The position numbers and the translations under genes were made by a program. The notes below the pieces were generated by a model that worked only from the letters and a program-made list of their open reading frames with translations, ran no database searches and had not been told where the DNA came from. From Bordetella genomosp. 2 (GTDB lineage Bacteria; Pseudomonadota; Gammaproteobacteria; Burkholderiales; Burkholderiaceae_B), in contig NZ_NEVT01000006.1 of assembly GCF_002261345.1 (NCBI RefSeq), forward strand, positions 930,001 through 994,000: 64,000 bases of DNA, in the 5' to 3' direction. Positions 8,599 through 56,503 of this stretch are shown piece by piece (the stretch's first letter is position 1; each line of letters begins with the position of its first letter).

Positions 8599-8897
8599 AG
8601 TGGTCGCAAGGCTTGATGGGGAGCCTGACCGGCTGCTGCGCGGCGGGCTCGATGACCTGAATGTGCAGACGCGACAGGGGTTTTTCAAGACCTGGCGACC
8701 GCCTGGACGAGGCGCGGGCCTGTACCGCCAGCATAGACCGTTCGCACCGCCGCCGCCACCGCGCGCCCCGCCGCGCGCGCCGGCCCGGCCCCGGCAGCGG
8801 TTCGGCATCATCTCCGCCAGGGAATACAATAGGGTTTCTTGTTCATTTGCTGCCAAGCACCGGCTCGCATCAGGGCTTGAGCAACATAAGGTAAATC
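8599..8897. other. Divergent clpB/fnr intergenic region
   Basis: This 299-base stretch holds no convincing gene. It contains the clpB heat-shock promoter candidate near its left end and a TACAAT -10-like hexamer at 8825-8830 facing fnr, 67 bases upstream of the fnr start codon. The middle (about 8690-8800) is GC-rich and featureless to my eye. Confidence 0.5.
8659..8689 (-). promoter_or_regulatory. Candidate sigma-32 promoter of clpB
   Basis: Reading on the minus strand, CTTGAAA (8689-8683) matches the sigma-32 -35 element exactly. After 16 bases, GCACATTC (8666-8659) is a weak match to the -10 CCCCATnT. The predicted leader of about 54 nt before clpB is reasonable. The spacer is slightly longer than usual. 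Confidence 0.4.
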
Positions 8898-9626
8898 ATG
8901 CAAAAACGAGTCCCCCTGCCGCCGGATTCGCCCCACTGCTCCACCTGCATGCTCGGCCACGTCTGCATCCCCGTCGGCATGGCCGCCAACGAGGTCGAGC
9001 AGCTCGACGAGCTCGTGCAAGAGCGCGTGCGGGTCGAGAAGGGCAAATCCCTCTACACCCTGCAAGACCCGCTCGACGCGGTCTACAGCCTGCGCTACGG
9101 CAGCATGAAGACCCAGATCGAGGACGCGGCCGGCCACGTCCAGATCACCGGGTTCCACCTGCCCGGCGAAGTGGTGGGCCTGGACGGCATGCTCGAGGGC
9201 AAGCACATCTCCACCGCGCTGGCCATGGAAGACTCCGAGGTCTGCGTCATCCGCCTGTCGCAGATCGACCACGTCGCCAGCCACCTGCCGTCGCTGCAGC
9301 ACCAGTTCCGCCGCCTCATGAGCCGCGAGCTGGGGCGCTCGTACCAGATGCTCGCCTCGCTGGGCGCCATGCGCTCCGAACAGCGGCTGGCGGCCTTCCT
9401 GCTGAACCTGTCGCAGCGCTACGCGGCGCTGGGCTACTCCTCCACCGAGTTCGTGCTGCGCATGAGCCGCGAGGAAATCGGCAACTACCTGGGCCTCACC
9501 CTGGAAACGGCCAGCCGCCTGTTCTCGCGTTTTGCACGCGAAGGTTTGATCCGCATCAATCAACGTGAAGTTCGTTTGATCGACGTACCGGCCCTGAAGC
9601 AATTGCTGGGCCAGGAACACTGCTGA
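8898..9626 (+). CDS. fnr: FNR-type oxygen-sensing Crp/Fnr regulator (Btr in Bordetella)
   Basis: A 242-residue global regulator of the aerobic/anaerobic switch. Cysteines C14, C17, C23 and C116 reproduce the spacing of E. coli FNR C20/C23/C29/C122 exactly, so a [4Fe-4S] oxygen-sensing cluster is expected. The cyclic-nucleotide-binding-like beta roll covers about 30-140, the dimer helix follows, and the HTH is LRMSREEIGNYLGLTLETASRLFSRF near the C-terminus, with the E-SR recognition pattern of FNR. An AAGG ribosome site precedes the ATG. The secreted hydrolase gene starts 14 bases downstream and may be co-transcribed. Confidence 0.96.
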   Translation: MQKRVPLPPDSPHCSTCMLGHVCIPVGMAANEVEQLDELVQERVRVEKGKSLYTLQDPLDAVYSLRYGSMKTQIEDAAGHVQITGFHLPGEVVGLDGMLEGKHISTALAMEDSEVCVIRLSQIDHVASHLPSLQHQFRRLMSRELGRSYQMLASLGAMRSEQRLAAFLLNLSQRYAALGYSSTEFVLRMSREEIGNYLGLTLETASRLFSRFAREGLIRINQREVRLIDVPALKQLLGQEHC

Positions 9627-9640
9627 GCGTCGCGCCGCCC

Positions 9641-10807
9641 ATGCGTACCCGCCGTCCCCGCCTGCGTTCGCGTACGTGGGTGGCGGCCGGGCTGGCCATG
9701 GCCCTGGCCGGTTCGTCGGGCATGGCCCGCGCCCAGACCCCGCTGCCGCCTCCCTACAACTACGACGAGCCGCTGCCGCGCGCCCCGCGCCCCGCGCCGC
9801 CCTGGCAGGATCTCGCCCTGGGCCCGGAGGACCAGCGCTACCGCATGCCGGTATATGCCAACCGCAAGCTGGCCGGCAAACTGGACACGGTGCGGCGCGC
9901 CATCGTCGTGCTGCACAGCGCCCGCCGCGACGCCAGCCGCCACTACCAGGACATCGCCGCGCTGGTCGAGCGCGACCCGGCGCGCCGGGCCGACACGCTG
10001 ATCCTGGCGCTGGAATTCCCCGCCCCCATCGACGCGGCCTTCGCCGGCCGCCCGGCCTGGCGCCGCAACAGCTGGGAAAACGGCGCCGACAGCGTGCGCG
10101 CGTCCGGACGGCCCGCGCCGGTCAGCGCCTTCCGGGTGCTGGACGACATACTGCGCTGGCTGGCCGAACGCGAGCGCCTGCCGGCGCTGTCCGACATCGT
10201 CGTGGCCGGCCATGGCGGCGGCGCGCAGCTGCTGCAGCGCTACGCCGTGCTCAACGACATCGACGGCCAGGTGCGCCGGGCCGGCCTGGGGCTGCGCTAC
10301 GTCATCGCCAACGCGCCGTCCTACCTGTACCTGACCAATGAGCGGCCGCGCCGCGCGGGTTCCGGCTACGCCCCGTACGAGCGCGGCATCTGCCCGACCT
10401 ACAACCAGTATCCGTACGGGCCGCAGCAGTTGCCCGCCTACGCGGCCGGCCAGGACCCGGCCGGCCTGTACGTGCGCTATGCGGCGCGCGACGTGGTGTA
10501 CCTGCTCGGCAGCGCCGACACCAACCCCGAGGACCACGGGCTCGACAAGCGCTGCGGCGCCGAAGCCCAGGGCGCCACGCGGCTGTCGCGCGGCCTGGGC
10601 TACGTGCGCTACGACCTGCTGCTGGCCGGGCGCGGCGCGCGCCGCGTCACGCTGGCGCACGAGCACCAGCAGGTGATGGGCGTCGGCCACGAAAGCGCCG
10701 CCATGTTCGGCTCGCTGTGCGGCACGCGCGCCCTGCTGGGCGACGCCGCGCGCACCGCGACCGATGCGGCGGCCTGCCAGCCGGTCGACCGCGCGCCCGC
10801 GCGCTAG
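9641..10807 (+). CDS. Secreted alpha/beta-hydrolase-like protein with Ser-to-Gly at the nucleophile
   Basis: A 388-residue exported protein: twin-Arg/Arg-rich n-region, hydrophobic core, and likely cleavage after MARA or so (residue 30-31). The fold reads as an alpha/beta hydrolase, with the strand VRRAIVVLHSARRDASRHYQ, the nucleophile-elbow strand DIVVAGHGGGAQLLQRYA, an acid-strand candidate LLGSADTNPEDHG and a terminal His in VGHESAAMFGS (H350). The elbow should read G-x-S-x-G, but here residue 192 is Gly (codon GGC at 10214-10216), one base from AGC Ser. It may be inactive, a non-catalytic binder, or a sequence error. The substrate is unknown. Confidence 0.7.
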   Translation: MRTRRPRLRSRTWVAAGLAMALAGSSGMARAQTPLPPPYNYDEPLPRAPRPAPPWQDLALGPEDQRYRMPVYANRKLAGKLDTVRRAIVVLHSARRDASRHYQDIAALVERDPARRADTLILALEFPAPIDAAFAGRPAWRRNSWENGADSVRASGRPAPVSAFRVLDDILRWLAERERLPALSDIVVAGHGGGAQLLQRYAVLNDIDGQVRRAGLGLRYVIANAPSYLYLTNERPRRAGSGYAPYERGICPTYNQYPYGPQQLPAYAAGQDPAGLYVRYAARDVVYLLGSADTNPEDHGLDKRCGAEAQGATRLSRGLGYVRYDLLLAGRGARRVTLAHEHQQVMGVGHESAAMFGSLCGTRALLGDAARTATDAAACQPVDRAPAR

Positions 10808-51786: not shown

Positions 51787-52719
51787 ATGCCCCGCATCCT
51801 GCGATCCATCCTCTGCACCTGCGCACTACTGCTCGCCAGCCCCGCCCCGCACGCGCAGGCCGAGCCGCAACTGTTGCACACCGAACCCTCCCAATTCGGC
51901 AAAATCCTCGTCTTCGAAGAAAACGGCGAACGCTGCCTGAACTTCAACAGCATGGTCGACTTCGGCCGCCAGACCTGCATGAGCCTGGCCGAGCCCGACA
52001 CCCTGGTGTTCCGCTACACCCGCATGATGGTCAGCGCCCTGTTCGTGCAGCCCGCGCCGCGGCGCATCCTGATCGTCGGCCTGGGCGGCGCCACCCTGCA
52101 GAAGACCCTGGCCCGGCTGCTGCCCCAGGCCACCATTGACACCGTCGAGATCGACCCCGCCATCGCCAAAGTCGCCGAAGCCTACTTCGGCTACCAGCCG
52201 GGCCCGCGCCAGCGCCTGTTCCTGGAAGACGGCCGCGCCTACATCGAACGCGCCCACCGCGAGGGCCGGCAATACGACATGGTCATGCTGGACGCTTTCG
52301 ACGTGGACTACATCCCCGCGCACCTGATGACCCGCGAATTCCTCGAGCACGTGCGCGGCATCCTGGCCGAGGGCGGCATCGTGGTGGCCAACACCTTCAC
52401 CAACAGCGAGCTGTACGAGCGCGAATCGGCCACCTACGCGGCGGTGTTCGGGGACTTCTTCAACCTGCGGCAAGGCAACCGGGTCATCATCGCGGCGCGC
52501 GGGGCATTGCCGGGGGATGAGGTGCTGGCGCGCAATGCGGCGGCGCTGCAGGACCGGATGCAGCGGATCGGGGTAGATGCCGAGGAAGCCGTGGGAAGAT
52601 TTTTTCGACAGACGACGGGCTGCCATGTTGATAGTGAAATTCTCCTCGACAATCTTTCCTATACACGGTTACCGAGGCTGTCTTCTCCAATTATGAGATC
52701 CGCCGCAACCGATCATTGA
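51787..52719 (+). CDS. Secreted spermidine-synthase-like protein with altered 3' end
   Basis: A 310-residue protein of the SpeE fold. A signal peptide of about 25 residues ends PHAQA. The SAM/dcSAM fold is seen in ILIVGLGGATLQKTLARLLPQATIDTVEIDPAIAKVAEAYFGY, GRAYIERAHREGRQYDMVMLDAFD and FLEHVRGILAEGGIVVANTFTN. It is an exported homologue and unlikely to be a polyamine synthase. From about residue 262 onward base composition and codon use change, and the tail FFRQTTGCHVDSEILLDNLSYTRL and beyond lies in island DNA. Part of it still resembles a SpeE C-terminus, so the end may have been swapped at insertion. Confidence 0.8.
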   Translation: MPRILRSILCTCALLLASPAPHAQAEPQLLHTEPSQFGKILVFEENGERCLNFNSMVDFGRQTCMSLAEPDTLVFRYTRMMVSALFVQPAPRRILIVGLGGATLQKTLARLLPQATIDTVEIDPAIAKVAEAYFGYQPGPRQRLFLEDGRAYIERAHREGRQYDMVMLDAFDVDYIPAHLMTREFLEHVRGILAEGGIVVANTFTNSELYERESATYAAVFGDFFNLRQGNRVIIAARGALPGDEVLARNAAALQDRMQRIGVDAEEAVGRFFRQTTGCHVDSEILLDNLSYTRLPRLSSPIMRSAATDH

Positions 52720-52742
52720 CCACGTAACTGAAATGATATTTT
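52716..52742 (+). promoter_or_regulatory. Weak candidate promoter of the NYN/NACHT operon
   Basis: TTGACC (52716-52721) overlaps the spermidine-synthase-like stop, followed by 15 bases and TATTTT (52737-52742) in a T-rich stretch. Spacing is short, so this is tentative. Confidence 0.25.
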
Positions 52743-52805
52743 TTCAATTTTATGTTACAAAACTAAGCTCTATGTCCTGACTATCGGCAATGCCGAAATG
52801 CGCGC

Positions 52806-53477
52806 ATGACCATATATTCCGGTTCAACAGTGCACAAGCGAATGCGGCGAGCGTTTACCCATGTCACGGCTTTTGTAGACTGGCAGTCTCAACTGCTGAT
52901 AACCGGTGTTAATGCTCAGGCTGAGCCGCTACTAGCAGCTCGAGCAGCGCTCAAACAAGTAACCCGGCGGATTACACTTTGCCTGTCAAAAATCGAAAAA
53001 AAAGCAAAATTCCGAGTGGCGTTACGCCTATATCACGGATGGCGAAAGGGATATGAACCGACTACGAATTTCAAAGCGATTCGTCAGGTTATCTCCGAAA
53101 CGGATTTTTCATCCCTATCGGACTTTCCAAACATAAGTTACTCCGGCATCATCGGTTTCGGTGACTGTCTAATTTCCGCTTCGCCTAAACGCCTTCATCC
53201 AAAAATTTCTATACACTTACCAAACACCTATCGTGACCGTGGCGATCGTGGAAGCGAAGAAAAGATGGTCGACACTGCAATAGCCACCGACTCTATTGTC
53301 TGCGCTTATCAATACCCCGAAGATTGGATTATTCTAGTGGGGGAAGACGATGACCTGGTGCCCCCGCTATTTTCCATTGAAACCATCGTATGTGCACGGG
53401 GAGCTAAAGCCCTGCTACTGAGCAAGCGCAAGCGGAGCAATAACTTTCTCTTACTTGACGGGCTGAATATTCAATAG
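52806..53477 (+). CDS. NYN/PIN-like putative nuclease, partner of NACHT protein
   Basis: A 223-residue protein with an NYN (PIN-like) ribonuclease pattern: first acidic residue in HVTAFVDWQSQL (D25), then EEKMVDTAIATDSI (E152, D156, D162) and WIILVGEDDDLVPPLFSI (E180 to D183), the usual order of NYN metal ligands. The central region (50-140) is variable. No signal peptide or membrane helix is seen. Codon use is AT-rich, unlike the flanks. The ATG is 7 codons from a second possible start (M13). It overlaps no known gene and is 7 bases ahead of the NACHT gene, so the two form an operon. The nuclease activity is predicted, not shown. Confidence 0.72.
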   Translation: MTIYSGSTVHKRMRRAFTHVTAFVDWQSQLLITGVNAQAEPLLAARAALKQVTRRITLCLSKIEKKAKFRVALRLYHGWRKGYEPTTNFKAIRQVISETDFSSLSDFPNISYSGIIGFGDCLISASPKRLHPKISIHLPNTYRDRGDRGSEEKMVDTAIATDSIVCAYQYPEDWIILVGEDDDLVPPLFSIETIVCARGAKALLLSKRKRSNNFLLLDGLNIQ

Positions 53478-53484
53478 GGACAAA

Positions 53485-55695
53485 ATGAACAGAGAAGAAC
53501 TAATTAATGATTTTTCCCCTTTTGTGGACATTGGCACTGGCGCTCCGAGAGTCTCCGAACAGCAATCGAGAGTTACGGTACGGATTTCGAGAGACGGGCG
53601 AGATCTGAAGATTGCAATTGATCCAGCTTCTGGAGTAGTGCAAGCGACTTGGGGGAAATCGCCTGCACGCAATTTTCCCTCAATAGCATCGTTGCTAGCT
53701 TCAGAGATCTTCGCGAATCTTAAAAGATGGGCTGACATTCAAACTGAAATATTTAGAGGAGAACTCTCCGACCGAAAAAGAGTCATACCGATCAATGCCG
53801 TAGCTCAGACTGGAGGTATGCTGCGAGGCGCAGGCGAAATTAATGCACTGATCAATAGCGTTGAGCGGAAACCTAACTCCACTGAGATCTTAATTATTGA
53901 TGGGCCCGCTGGTATTGGCAAGACCACTCTTATATCTGAAATCGCTTTTCTCCGTGCTTCAAACTACAGACAATGCCCCTCACCGCTAGTCCTTCATGTA
54001 AAAAGCCGAGGGCGCGTGCTTTCCAATTTAGATGATCTAATGGCATTTAGCCTCCAGACCATACGTTCAAACATTACATATGATCAGGTTCCTGTTCTAG
54101 TCAGGCACGGGCTAGTCATTTGCGCCATCGACGGATTCGATGAATTGGGAGACCCCAACGGATATGATATGGCTTGGGCACAGGTCAGTGAGCTGATCGC
54201 CTCTGTCCGTGGACAAGGGACGCTCATCCTAGCAGGCCGTGATACCTTTATCAGCCGCGAACGGCTAATGAGAGATGTGAGTTCACTGCGTGACGGAACA
54301 GATACGGTTAGCGGCGTCACATTGCGCCTGCCGTCCCCTGAAGAAGCAAGAAATTGGCTACTCACCCATAAAGGATGGGGTGAGGCGAGTTTTGAGATCC
54401 CAGCGATATCTGTTTTGTTGGAAGAAGGCTCTTTCGCTCTCAGACCCGTATTCCTGAAATTGTTGGCAGAACAAATTAAGCCCAAAGATATTAAAGAAGT
54501 CCACGAAAGGTATCTAACCTCTTTTCTATTACAGAGCATTCTTAGCCGTGAAGCTGGGCTCTTTGGAAACCCGGTTGAAGCGGTTCTTGAAAAATCAGAG
54601 ATAGAGAGATTCCTTCAAGATTTCCTGCATGAAGCCGCTCGCGAAATGGCTGATATGCAAAGCGAATCTCTAGATAACAGTACACTCGCATGGATCGCAG
54701 AAGCAGCGCTTGGCGATGGACATCCTGCAGATATTGTCGGGTTGGTCAAGAATAGGGCAGCAGTAATCGCATTGTTGATAAATGACGATCGCCCCGGATA
54801 TAAAACGTTCCTCCACACTTACATACAGAATTATTATCTAGCAAAAGTAGCGATCGAGGCGTTAGCAAATGGGGAGCTACCAAAGTTTATTCGTCGAAAT
54901 ATCTTGGGCCCCGAATTCCTGCTTACCTTTGTAGAGGTTGCTGCGGAATATAGCTCACACTCTCCGCAGACAGTCCGAAATTTTTTCACCCGAACTCAAT
55001 CTCTAACTCAGCAATACGCCAATTTGGATCGAGGTTCTAGAAATCTGGGAGCGTTGCTCTTCGCAGCATTTCAGAGCCTTATCGGCGAAGATGCGGCATA
55101 TCTCAGCAACATTCAACTAGATGACGCCGTGGCTCGGGGGACGGCAGGCCCAGCGAAGATATCGTCTGTGGCGATAAACCAACTCGATTGCAGGCAGGCA
55201 GATTTACGCTGCATAGAATTCATCGACTGCAACATTACCAGCTTAATCGCAGATGATGGCTCTAGATTCCCAACGTCCTTTCCCTTTCCGAGTATATTAA
55301 TTGACGGAACGGGAGAACATATGACGGAACCAAGCAGGATAATGGAGTGGATAAACGTACGTGGTCGCTCACATGACGCAGCCAATGATTCAATTGTTCC
55401 GCAAAAAGTGAGGGAGCATGACATATACTCGCTGCTTGGCCGAGCGTGCCGGATCCGGCAGTACTGGCTCCGTGAAAGCGATGACATATATGCTGAACGC
55501 ATTCTGCGGGACCCTAACTGGCCACTCCTTAGTAAGGTATTGACCGAACACGGCTTTTTAAGAGTAGAAAAGCGAGATGCATCCGGAAGGTCTTCAATTT
55601 TTTATCATTTGCGACAGCCAGAACGGCTACTAGCAGAGGATAAAATGGATCATGAAGTTGCACATTTTTTTCATGATCTGGCCCTCTCAATTTGA
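53485..55695 (+). CDS. NACHT-type STAND ATPase (NLR-like), candidate defence sensor
   Basis: A 736-residue protein. An N-terminal region of unknown family (1-110) precedes the NACHT module: Walker A GPAGIGKTT at 140-148 (K146), Walker B VICAIDGFDEL at 211-221 with D216 and the NACHT D219-E220, and LILAGRD with R252 as sensor arginine. A helical middle (300-540) is followed by a Leu/Cys pentapeptide-like stretch (567-595, LDCRQADLRCIEFIDCNIT) and a winged-helix-like C-terminus (660-715). Bacterial NACHT ATPases sense phage products and activate an effector. Here the effector may be the upstream NYN protein. Weak ribosome site AGGGA. Low G+C. Confidence 0.8.
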   Translation: MNREELINDFSPFVDIGTGAPRVSEQQSRVTVRISRDGRDLKIAIDPASGVVQATWGKSPARNFPSIASLLASEIFANLKRWADIQTEIFRGELSDRKRVIPINAVAQTGGMLRGAGEINALINSVERKPNSTEILIIDGPAGIGKTTLISEIAFLRASNYRQCPSPLVLHVKSRGRVLSNLDDLMAFSLQTIRSNITYDQVPVLVRHGLVICAIDGFDELGDPNGYDMAWAQVSELIASVRGQGTLILAGRDTFISRERLMRDVSSLRDGTDTVSGVTLRLPSPEEARNWLLTHKGWGEASFEIPAISVLLEEGSFALRPVFLKLLAEQIKPKDIKEVHERYLTSFLLQSILSREAGLFGNPVEAVLEKSEIERFLQDFLHEAAREMADMQSESLDNSTLAWIAEAALGDGHPADIVGLVKNRAAVIALLINDDRPGYKTFLHTYIQNYYLAKVAIEALANGELPKFIRRNILGPEFLLTFVEVAAEYSSHSPQTVRNFFTRTQSLTQQYANLDRGSRNLGALLFAAFQSLIGEDAAYLSNIQLDDAVARGTAGPAKISSVAINQLDCRQADLRCIEFIDCNITSLIADDGSRFPTSFPFPSILIDGTGEHMTEPSRIMEWINVRGRSHDAANDSIVPQKVREHDIYSLLGRACRIRQYWLRESDDIYAERILRDPNWPLLSKVLTEHGFLRVEKRDASGRSSIFYHLRQPERLLAEDKMDHEVAHFFHDLALSI

Positions 55696-55843
55696 GCGCT
55701 TTGCCAAAAGTCGGTCAGGAAAACGGGCCTGAACGGAAACTGACAAATAATGCAATAAAGACCGTCTTGTGCGATTTAAATCTACGGTGCTTCTAATGGT
55801 CGAATAGCGCGACGCTGCGCATATCCTAAGCTGCGAGGCCCCC

Positions 55844-56503
55844 ATGCGCCCCACTCCCGCCATCGTGCTCGCCACGCTCCTGGGCACGCTCTTCTACCTG
55901 GCCCTGGCCGTCTTCGGCTACGGCGGCGTGGCGGCGTTCTTCTCTCATCCGGCGCGCATCGCGCTGGCCGTGGTGTTGTTCGCCCTGTCGACCGCCGCGC
56001 TGTTCAGCGGCGGCAACCTGAACCCGGGCGAATACGAGGACCGCGACAACCGCTGGGTGCTGACCGCTTTCGCGCTGCTGGGCCTGTTGAGCGGGTTCGT
56101 GCCGGCCTATACCGACCGCATCGATTTCTGGACCATGGACGGCGACACGCTGCGCTGGACCGGCGTGGCGGTGTTCGCCATCGGCGGCGCGCTGCGGCTG
56201 TGGCCCGTGTTCGTGCTGGGGCGGCGCTTCAGCGGGCTGGTGGCGATCCAGCCGGGACACGAGCTGGTGACCACCGGCATCTATGGCAAGGTGCGCAACC
56301 CCAGCTACCTGGGGCTGCTGATCAGCATGCTGGGCTGGGCGCTGACGTTCCGCTCGGCGGTCGGCGTGCTGCTGGCGCTGTGCATGCTGCCGCCCCTGAT
56401 CGCCCGCATGCGCAGCGAGGAGCGGCTGCTGCGCGCGCATTTCGGGGTGCAGTACGAGAACTACCGCAAGCGCACCTGGCGCCTGATTCCCTGGTTGTAC
56501 TGA
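55844..56503 (+). CDS. Isoprenylcysteine methyltransferase (ICMT)-family membrane protein
   Basis: A 219-residue integral membrane protein with five or six helices. The C-terminal half carries the ICMT/PEMT signature: HELVTTGIYGKVRNPSYLGLLISMLGWAL, then RMRSEERLLRAHFGVQYENYRKRTWRLIPWLY, including the RHP-like NPxYLG and ExxL motifs that bind SAM. The substrate is unknown; bacterial members methylate small thiols or lipids. It is the first core gene after the island. Confidence 0.85.
   Translation: MRPTPAIVLATLLGTLFYLALAVFGYGGVAAFFSHPARIALAVVLFALSTAALFSGGNLNPGEYEDRDNRWVLTAFALLGLLSGFVPAYTDRIDFWTMDGDTLRWTGVAVFAIGGALRLWPVFVLGRRFSGLVAIQPGHELVTTGIYGKVRNPSYLGLLISMLGWALTFRSAVGVLLALCMLPPLIARMRSEERLLRAHFGVQYENYRKRTWRLIPWLY

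Follow-up and report, generated by a model that had tools for sequence, protein, structure and literature searches.

A NYN/PIN-like gene paired with a NACHT ATPase gene in Bordetella genomosp. 2, probably a two-protein defence system

Described systems and the layout of the locus

The NACHT proteins of bacteria are regarded as relatives of the animal NLRs, and the Avs (AVAST) proteins are STAND ATPases with nuclease-type effectors. A locus that shares this trait is found in Bordetella genomosp. 2, within a 64,000-nucleotide stretch of contig NZ_NEVT01000006.1 that we call the window and to which all coordinates refer unless stated otherwise. It consists of two genes on the + strand spaced 7 bases apart, the first encoding a NYN/PIN-like protein of 223 aa (52806-53477), our proposed effector, and the second a NACHT ATPase of 736 aa (53485-55695), an NLR-like STAND protein that we propose as sensor and activator. 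We consider it probable that the pair is a two-protein NLR-like system directed against phages or other mobile elements, in which the NACHT protein senses and licenses an RNase in trans.

Several described systems use similar parts, and the comparisons that follow hold for the available portions of the papers cited. In bNACHT25, a tripartite chain with an N-terminal effector, the nuclease domain is needed for protection, and the bNACHT proteins of clade 14 are said to be without readily discernible effector domains (PMC12169576). The NACHT/STAND ATPase module is common to these proteins and to the window pair, and the window NACHT protein resembles clade 14 in that its chain shows no readily recognised effector domain; bNACHT25, however, carries a PD-(D/E)XK nuclease on the same chain, whereas in the window the nuclease-like protein has a NYN fold and a separate upstream gene. 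LypABC, a CARD-NLR system, is an operon of three genes that include homologues of peptidases and endonucleases (PMC13236601); such systems, like the window, encode an NLR-like ATPase and its partner proteins in a single operon, but the window has two genes and one of them encodes a NYN protein. Among the DefensePredictor systems (PMC13092281), DS-5 joins a PIN protein to a DUF5830/AcrIF4-like protein and DS-8 a metallophosphatase to NACHT. The former thus has a PIN ribonuclease with a partner gene and the latter a NACHT tied to a hydrolase, both as in the window, but neither pairs PIN/NYN and NACHT proteins as two genes. In the vWA-MoxR ternary systems, PIN RNase and NACHT NTPase domains also co-occur, but in one polypeptide of a three-component system (PMC7159879), which makes them a fused analogue of the window pair.

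The PADLOC-DB 2.0.0 models give weak partial matches only, with no good match for either protein. Against the PADLOC and NCBIfam Avs models, the window NACHT protein aligns over the P-loop stretch alone (the matched PADLOC models have 1504 and 1570 positions) and does not reach a full-length match; its NCBIfam Avs2 score is 11.4 bits against a cut-off of 1000, and the best PADLOC match among 14 NACHT members is to Avs2, with an E of 6.6e-5. A two-gene NYN-NACHT system is also undescribed in the titles and abstract openings among the literature matches listed, with most subscription papers, supplements and the DefenseFinder models lying outside this search. No such system occurs in the available parts of PMC8195603, PMC3710099, PMC12169576, PMC13236601, PMC13092281, PMC7159879, PMC10952713, PMC10853773, PMC11090510 and PMC12988326, and none of the terms sought for the pair occurs in those of PMC8565338, PMC9252829 and PMC12458937. 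An earlier first-pass annotation, made from the letters of the window, had known of no described system with this layout, and its view agrees with PADLOC-DB 2.0.0 and the literature searched, a partial check.

The window NYN protein matches HEC-09, its nearest NYN model in PADLOC-DB 2.0.0 and one of the Hma-embedded candidates (HECs; PMC12988326, in its available part), over a 48-residue stretch (E 6e-5) and not full length, and 14 of 15 members of the NYN family show weak matches to it (best 6.9e-7). Both proteins are NYN-type, but HEC-09 has a DGFN-type motif in place of DWNSQ, as judged by eye. HEC-09 is present in 18 of 299 genomes at 20 loci (two overlap and some are cut by contig ends), and in none of the 20 does our NACHT profile match within the flanking DNA, which spans at most about 1.5 kb. 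Because NACHT is absent from these flanks, HEC-09 was rejected as the same family and is regarded as a different NYN family. At L065 and L069, HEC-09-type NYN genes lie directly upstream of a large open reading frame (ORF), which we take to have a DUF1156-type methylase likeness. Given this adjoining methylase-like ORF, HEC-09 may have its own partner.

Conservation of the pair and of its two proteins

The pair was compared across 31 loci: that of the window, 15 on genome contigs, five from sampled genomes (G219, G348, G514, G369 and G382) and 10 on distinct viral contigs, where L031/L033 and L032/L034 each denote the same contig and were counted once. NYN and NACHT genes, whole or partial, lie side by side on one strand in 30 of the 31, and the remaining locus (L030) is on a contig that stops just after the NYN gene. 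The NACHT gene is only partial in L014 and L019, near a contig end, and the nuclease-like gene is separate from the NACHT gene in 30/30 pairs. Searches seeded with NACHT recover NYN neighbours and those seeded with NYN recover NACHT, so that both agree. In G369 and G382, where the NACHT relatives are near the detection limit (ORF-level E 4e-27 and 7e-29), a NYN gene again lies directly upstream (E 4e-11 and 9e-11); neither genome came up when a comparable draw was searched with the NYN profile (cut-off 1e-6). For this reason, and because scanning relies on short patterns of conserved peptides, relatives that are more distant or stand unpaired may have escaped it.

For the 23 complete pairs, the NYN and NACHT distance matrices are correlated with r 0.944, a value as high as which was reached in 0 of 5000 permutations. 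This set excludes the incomplete or broken copies (L014, L019, L025, L026, L030 and G219) and the later-fetched L092 and L093, and it counts both of the near-identical L039 and L040. The NYN-NACHT pair is real, conserved and mobile.

The 736-aa protein matches PF05729 (NACHT) with 30.8 bits, above the cut-off of 26.7, and its P-loop K146 and Walker B D216, together with D219 and E220, are invariant in 23/23 complete pairs. Its predicted structure has an NLR-type fold that resembles NOD2, NLRC4 and NLRP3. Against the sequences of solved structures, the NACHT profile gives only P-loop-region matches to NLRP3 (best E 0.002), and a viral structure library yields one match, to an NLR-like siphovirus protein (E 3e-11). 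The N-terminal region (about residues 1-115; 53485-53829, + strand), delimited by predicted secondary structure and conservation, holds invariant F13 and D15. With E values as high as 1 admitted, Pfam gives no match before residue 118 of the chain, so no N-terminal effector was matched. The C-terminal part (about residues 538-736; 55096-55695, + strand) is predicted to form short strands at regular spacing, followed by helix-strand units.

In the 223-aa protein, D25, K153, D156, D162, D181, D182 and D183 are conserved, the acidic residues in all 23 complete pairs. The predicted structure is a PIN/NYN fold that resembles NYN and FEN/PIN nucleases, more weakly than the NACHT protein resembles its own relatives. 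A sequence search of solved structures gave nothing significant for NYN, and a PHROGs search of its members gave stray matches only, at most 2/15. The first-pass annotation had reported an AT-rich block with two genes 7 bases apart, and its coordinates and layout are correct, as are the P-loop lysine K146 and the NACHT Walker motifs that it had read. Both of its domain assignments are likewise supported, NACHT by profile and fold and NYN by fold and acidic residues. It had further held that homologues of the 223-residue protein away from NACHT genes would count against the pair; in a partial check none were found, apart from the one contig that ends there.

Proposed licensing of the nuclease and the decayed copies

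Given that the pair is kept together in distantly related bacteria and in prophages, it is probably an undescribed two-part defence. We infer defence, RNase activity and licensing, and with them physical interaction, an RNA substrate, a phage trigger and a NACHT protein that switches the nuclease on and does not inhibit it. In the mechanism that we propose, the C-terminal region of the NACHT protein would act as the sensor and recognise an infection cue, ATP binding would drive oligomerisation, and the conserved N-terminal region would serve for docking and bring in the NYN nuclease, the product of a gene of its own. The licensed nuclease would then cut RNA (tRNA or mRNA) and thereby stop the phage or the infected cell.

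A bolder form of this proposal, which we advance tentatively as possible, is that the pair represents a deeply conserved split NLR, in which an inflammasome-like NACHT protein activates a separate RNase and which filamentous and tailed prophages also carry to kill competitors. If true, it would constitute an RNase-output branch of NLR immunity with its effector in trans, beyond the single-chain descriptions. With the effector in trans, the sensor, switch and nuclease could be purified, mutated and recombined separately, and signal transfer from NLR to effector would lend itself to direct tests in bacterial cells. Beside the DNase output that the available part of PMC12169576 reports for bNACHT25, there would also be one by RNase.

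Three copies of the pair are decayed. In G219 the NYN frame is intact and the NACHT gene is frameshifted near residue 245; in L025, a transposase-like ORF (8726-9919 of that locus) splits the NYN gene and the NACHT frame is still open; in L026, a frame change lies in NYN and the NACHT frame is intact. Provided that these are real changes, and not errors of sequencing or assembly, loss of one half does not make the other lethal. These copies bear on the main rival to licensing, which uses the same parts with the opposite sign of control: the NACHT protein would keep the NYN protein inactive and free it upon meeting a phage protein, much as the AriA ATPase reportedly holds and releases AriB in PARIS. 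The same adjacency and co-inheritance fit sequestration and release, but a held-back poison should do harm once NACHT is lost, and decay is seen both ways (G219 on one side, L025 and L026 on the other). A decayed copy could nevertheless be silent, and frameshifts could be errors of the kind just named. We regard sequestration and release as unlikely, and the decayed copies would count mildly against the NACHT protein as an antitoxin and in favour of licensing.

Genomic contexts and distribution

The pair of the window lies in a foreign low-GC islet at about 52570-55830 (edges approximate, with no strand of its own), delimited by GC content and by breaks in the alignment with congeners. GC is 47.4% in the islet and 71.3% elsewhere in the window, with 52001-56000 excluded from the latter. 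By eye, we take the flanking genes to be spermidine-synthase-like and isoprenylcysteine-methyltransferase-like. Congener alignment ends at 52511 (G302) or 52535 (G303), inside the 3' part of the spermidine-synthase-like gene, and picks up again at 55832-55833, just ahead of the next gene (G300, G302, G303 and G304). The left boundary comes from G302 and G303 only, because the left flank of G304 (L059) does not align to that of the window and G300 (L062) is a short contig. The NACHT gene was found in 0 of 8 other genomes of the genus searched; on sequence evidence, the islet is acquired. At the same site, G302 (L061) has about 1.45 kb of other cargo with a DNA/RNA non-specific endonuclease domain protein, and G303 (L060) about 6.8 kb of other cargo, in which a DUF4238 protein matches a PADLOC defence candidate. 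Because these cargoes lie between the same flanking genes, 52511-55832 is a variable chromosomal site. Scans of the islet for repeats, promoters and terminators gave nothing above chance or of use.

Judging from ORFs read by eye, L030, L031, L039 and L040 are on filamentous-phage-like contigs, and L032, L035-L038 and L041 on tailed-phage-like or satellite-like ones. Profile support of phage type is limited to L035, with a baseplate domain, and L038, where an integrase domain scores below threshold; an L031 ORF read as a filamentous-phage DNA-binding protein, and the L041 and L021 neighbours read as phage or element genes, have no Pfam match. If the filamentous-phage-like contigs are genuine, the pair would be an added weapon in phage-phage competition. 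In all four of these contigs small ORFs lie upstream of it, and one of them has, by eye, a similar end (NLPNQ-AG) in each; this suggests a shared cargo slot in such phages. In G219, an integrase-like gene (by eye) lies on one side of the pair and a TraI_2 relaxase on the other, an arrangement like that of an integrative and conjugative element (ICE).

Other copies have neighbours of defence type, related to restriction or DISARM/Dpd systems, as found in a PADLOC scan of eight neighbours from six loci and two cargo proteins of the congeners' sites, the others being read by eye. The genes flanking the pair in L025 and L026, from two related bins, are one for a DrmMI/type IIG-like methylase and one for a DpdE/DrmD-like SNF2 helicase (DpdE match of the L026 helicase, E 6e-235). 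In L014 a type I HsdR gene precedes the pair; in L013 the upstream ORF ends, by eye, like the HsdR of L014, and a downstream HNH protein has a type IV restriction match.

Another rival is a toxin-antitoxin-like addiction module, which would stabilise mobile elements and would not sense phages specifically. In its favour, the pair consists of two genes on DNA of prophage-like and conjugative type, and PIN/NYN nucleases are similar to VapC toxins. However, we know of no antitoxin of the type of a 736-aa NLR-like ATPase, copies with either half broken persist, and L025, L026, L014 and L013 have defence-type neighbours; an addiction module is thus very unlikely.

The pair is rare. The NYN protein matches two of 299 genomes of the order, the genome of the window aside, one match being strong and one dropped as spurious. 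The NYN profile matches 2 of 397 other genomes of the phylum and none of 368 other genomes of the class, and the NACHT profile matches 4 of 397 others of the phylum; from these counts, the frequency of the pair is about one percent or less. Many of the 15 genome-contig loci are metagenome bins according to their record titles, and the genera in those titles are alpha-, beta- and gammaproteobacteria. By tblastn the NYN protein (P0001) has no match in the plasmid or phage record collections, nor has the NACHT protein (P0002) in that of plasmids. In viral contigs, single-protein scans found nothing and profile scans found pairs; when the distant NACHT protein of L039 was the query, the contigs of L039 and L040 alone came up. 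Among the candidates dropped, L003 (G119) has 76 residues, an E of 4e-4, an internal stop and no match to either protein or profile; L005-L010 (E 1e-4 to 7e-4) match in the P-loop stretch only, L006 alone with a marginal NACHT profile match (1e-4); and L047-L058 are short DNA matches only.

NYN proteins act in RNA processing elsewhere, and the presence of pairs in prophage-like contigs could fit a module for RNA processing or prophage regulation with no immune role. Its patchy distribution, variable chromosomal site, some defence-type neighbours and NLR-like fold all argue otherwise, and we give such a module only a slim chance.

Several observations also weigh against a licensed RNase defence. 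The Pfam NYN score of the 223-aa protein is 16.4 bits, below a cut-off of 24.2 that is a model threshold and not a biochemical trait; the protein is therefore named NYN/PIN-like, and the profile check proposed in the first-pass annotation holds for NACHT and not for NYN. Its Foldseek matches are weak (best E 4e-3), and the best of them include DNA nucleases (FEN, PLX1), so DNA is possible as its substrate. The Walker B stretch of the most distant pairs, L092 and L093, reads DGFEE by eye, with E in place of D219. Agreement between the trees denotes joint inheritance, not interaction or contact. A PADLOC-matched neighbour is present in only 4 of the 31 loci (L025, L026, L014 and L013), with six scanned, and the neighbours of L021 and L024 have no PADLOC match, that of L024 being a pyruvate dehydrogenase subunit. 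In the window, the islet shows neither a recognised mobility gene nor a neighbour of defence type, and prophage and ICE cargo can have other purposes. The coupling and mobility of the two genes are supported, as are some defence-type neighbourhoods.

By eye, the distant pair of L093 (G382) lies between two large polyketide-synthase-like ORFs, and that of L092 (G369) has a transposase-like ORF on either side, the two being related (482 and 477 aa), in a composite-transposon-like arrangement.
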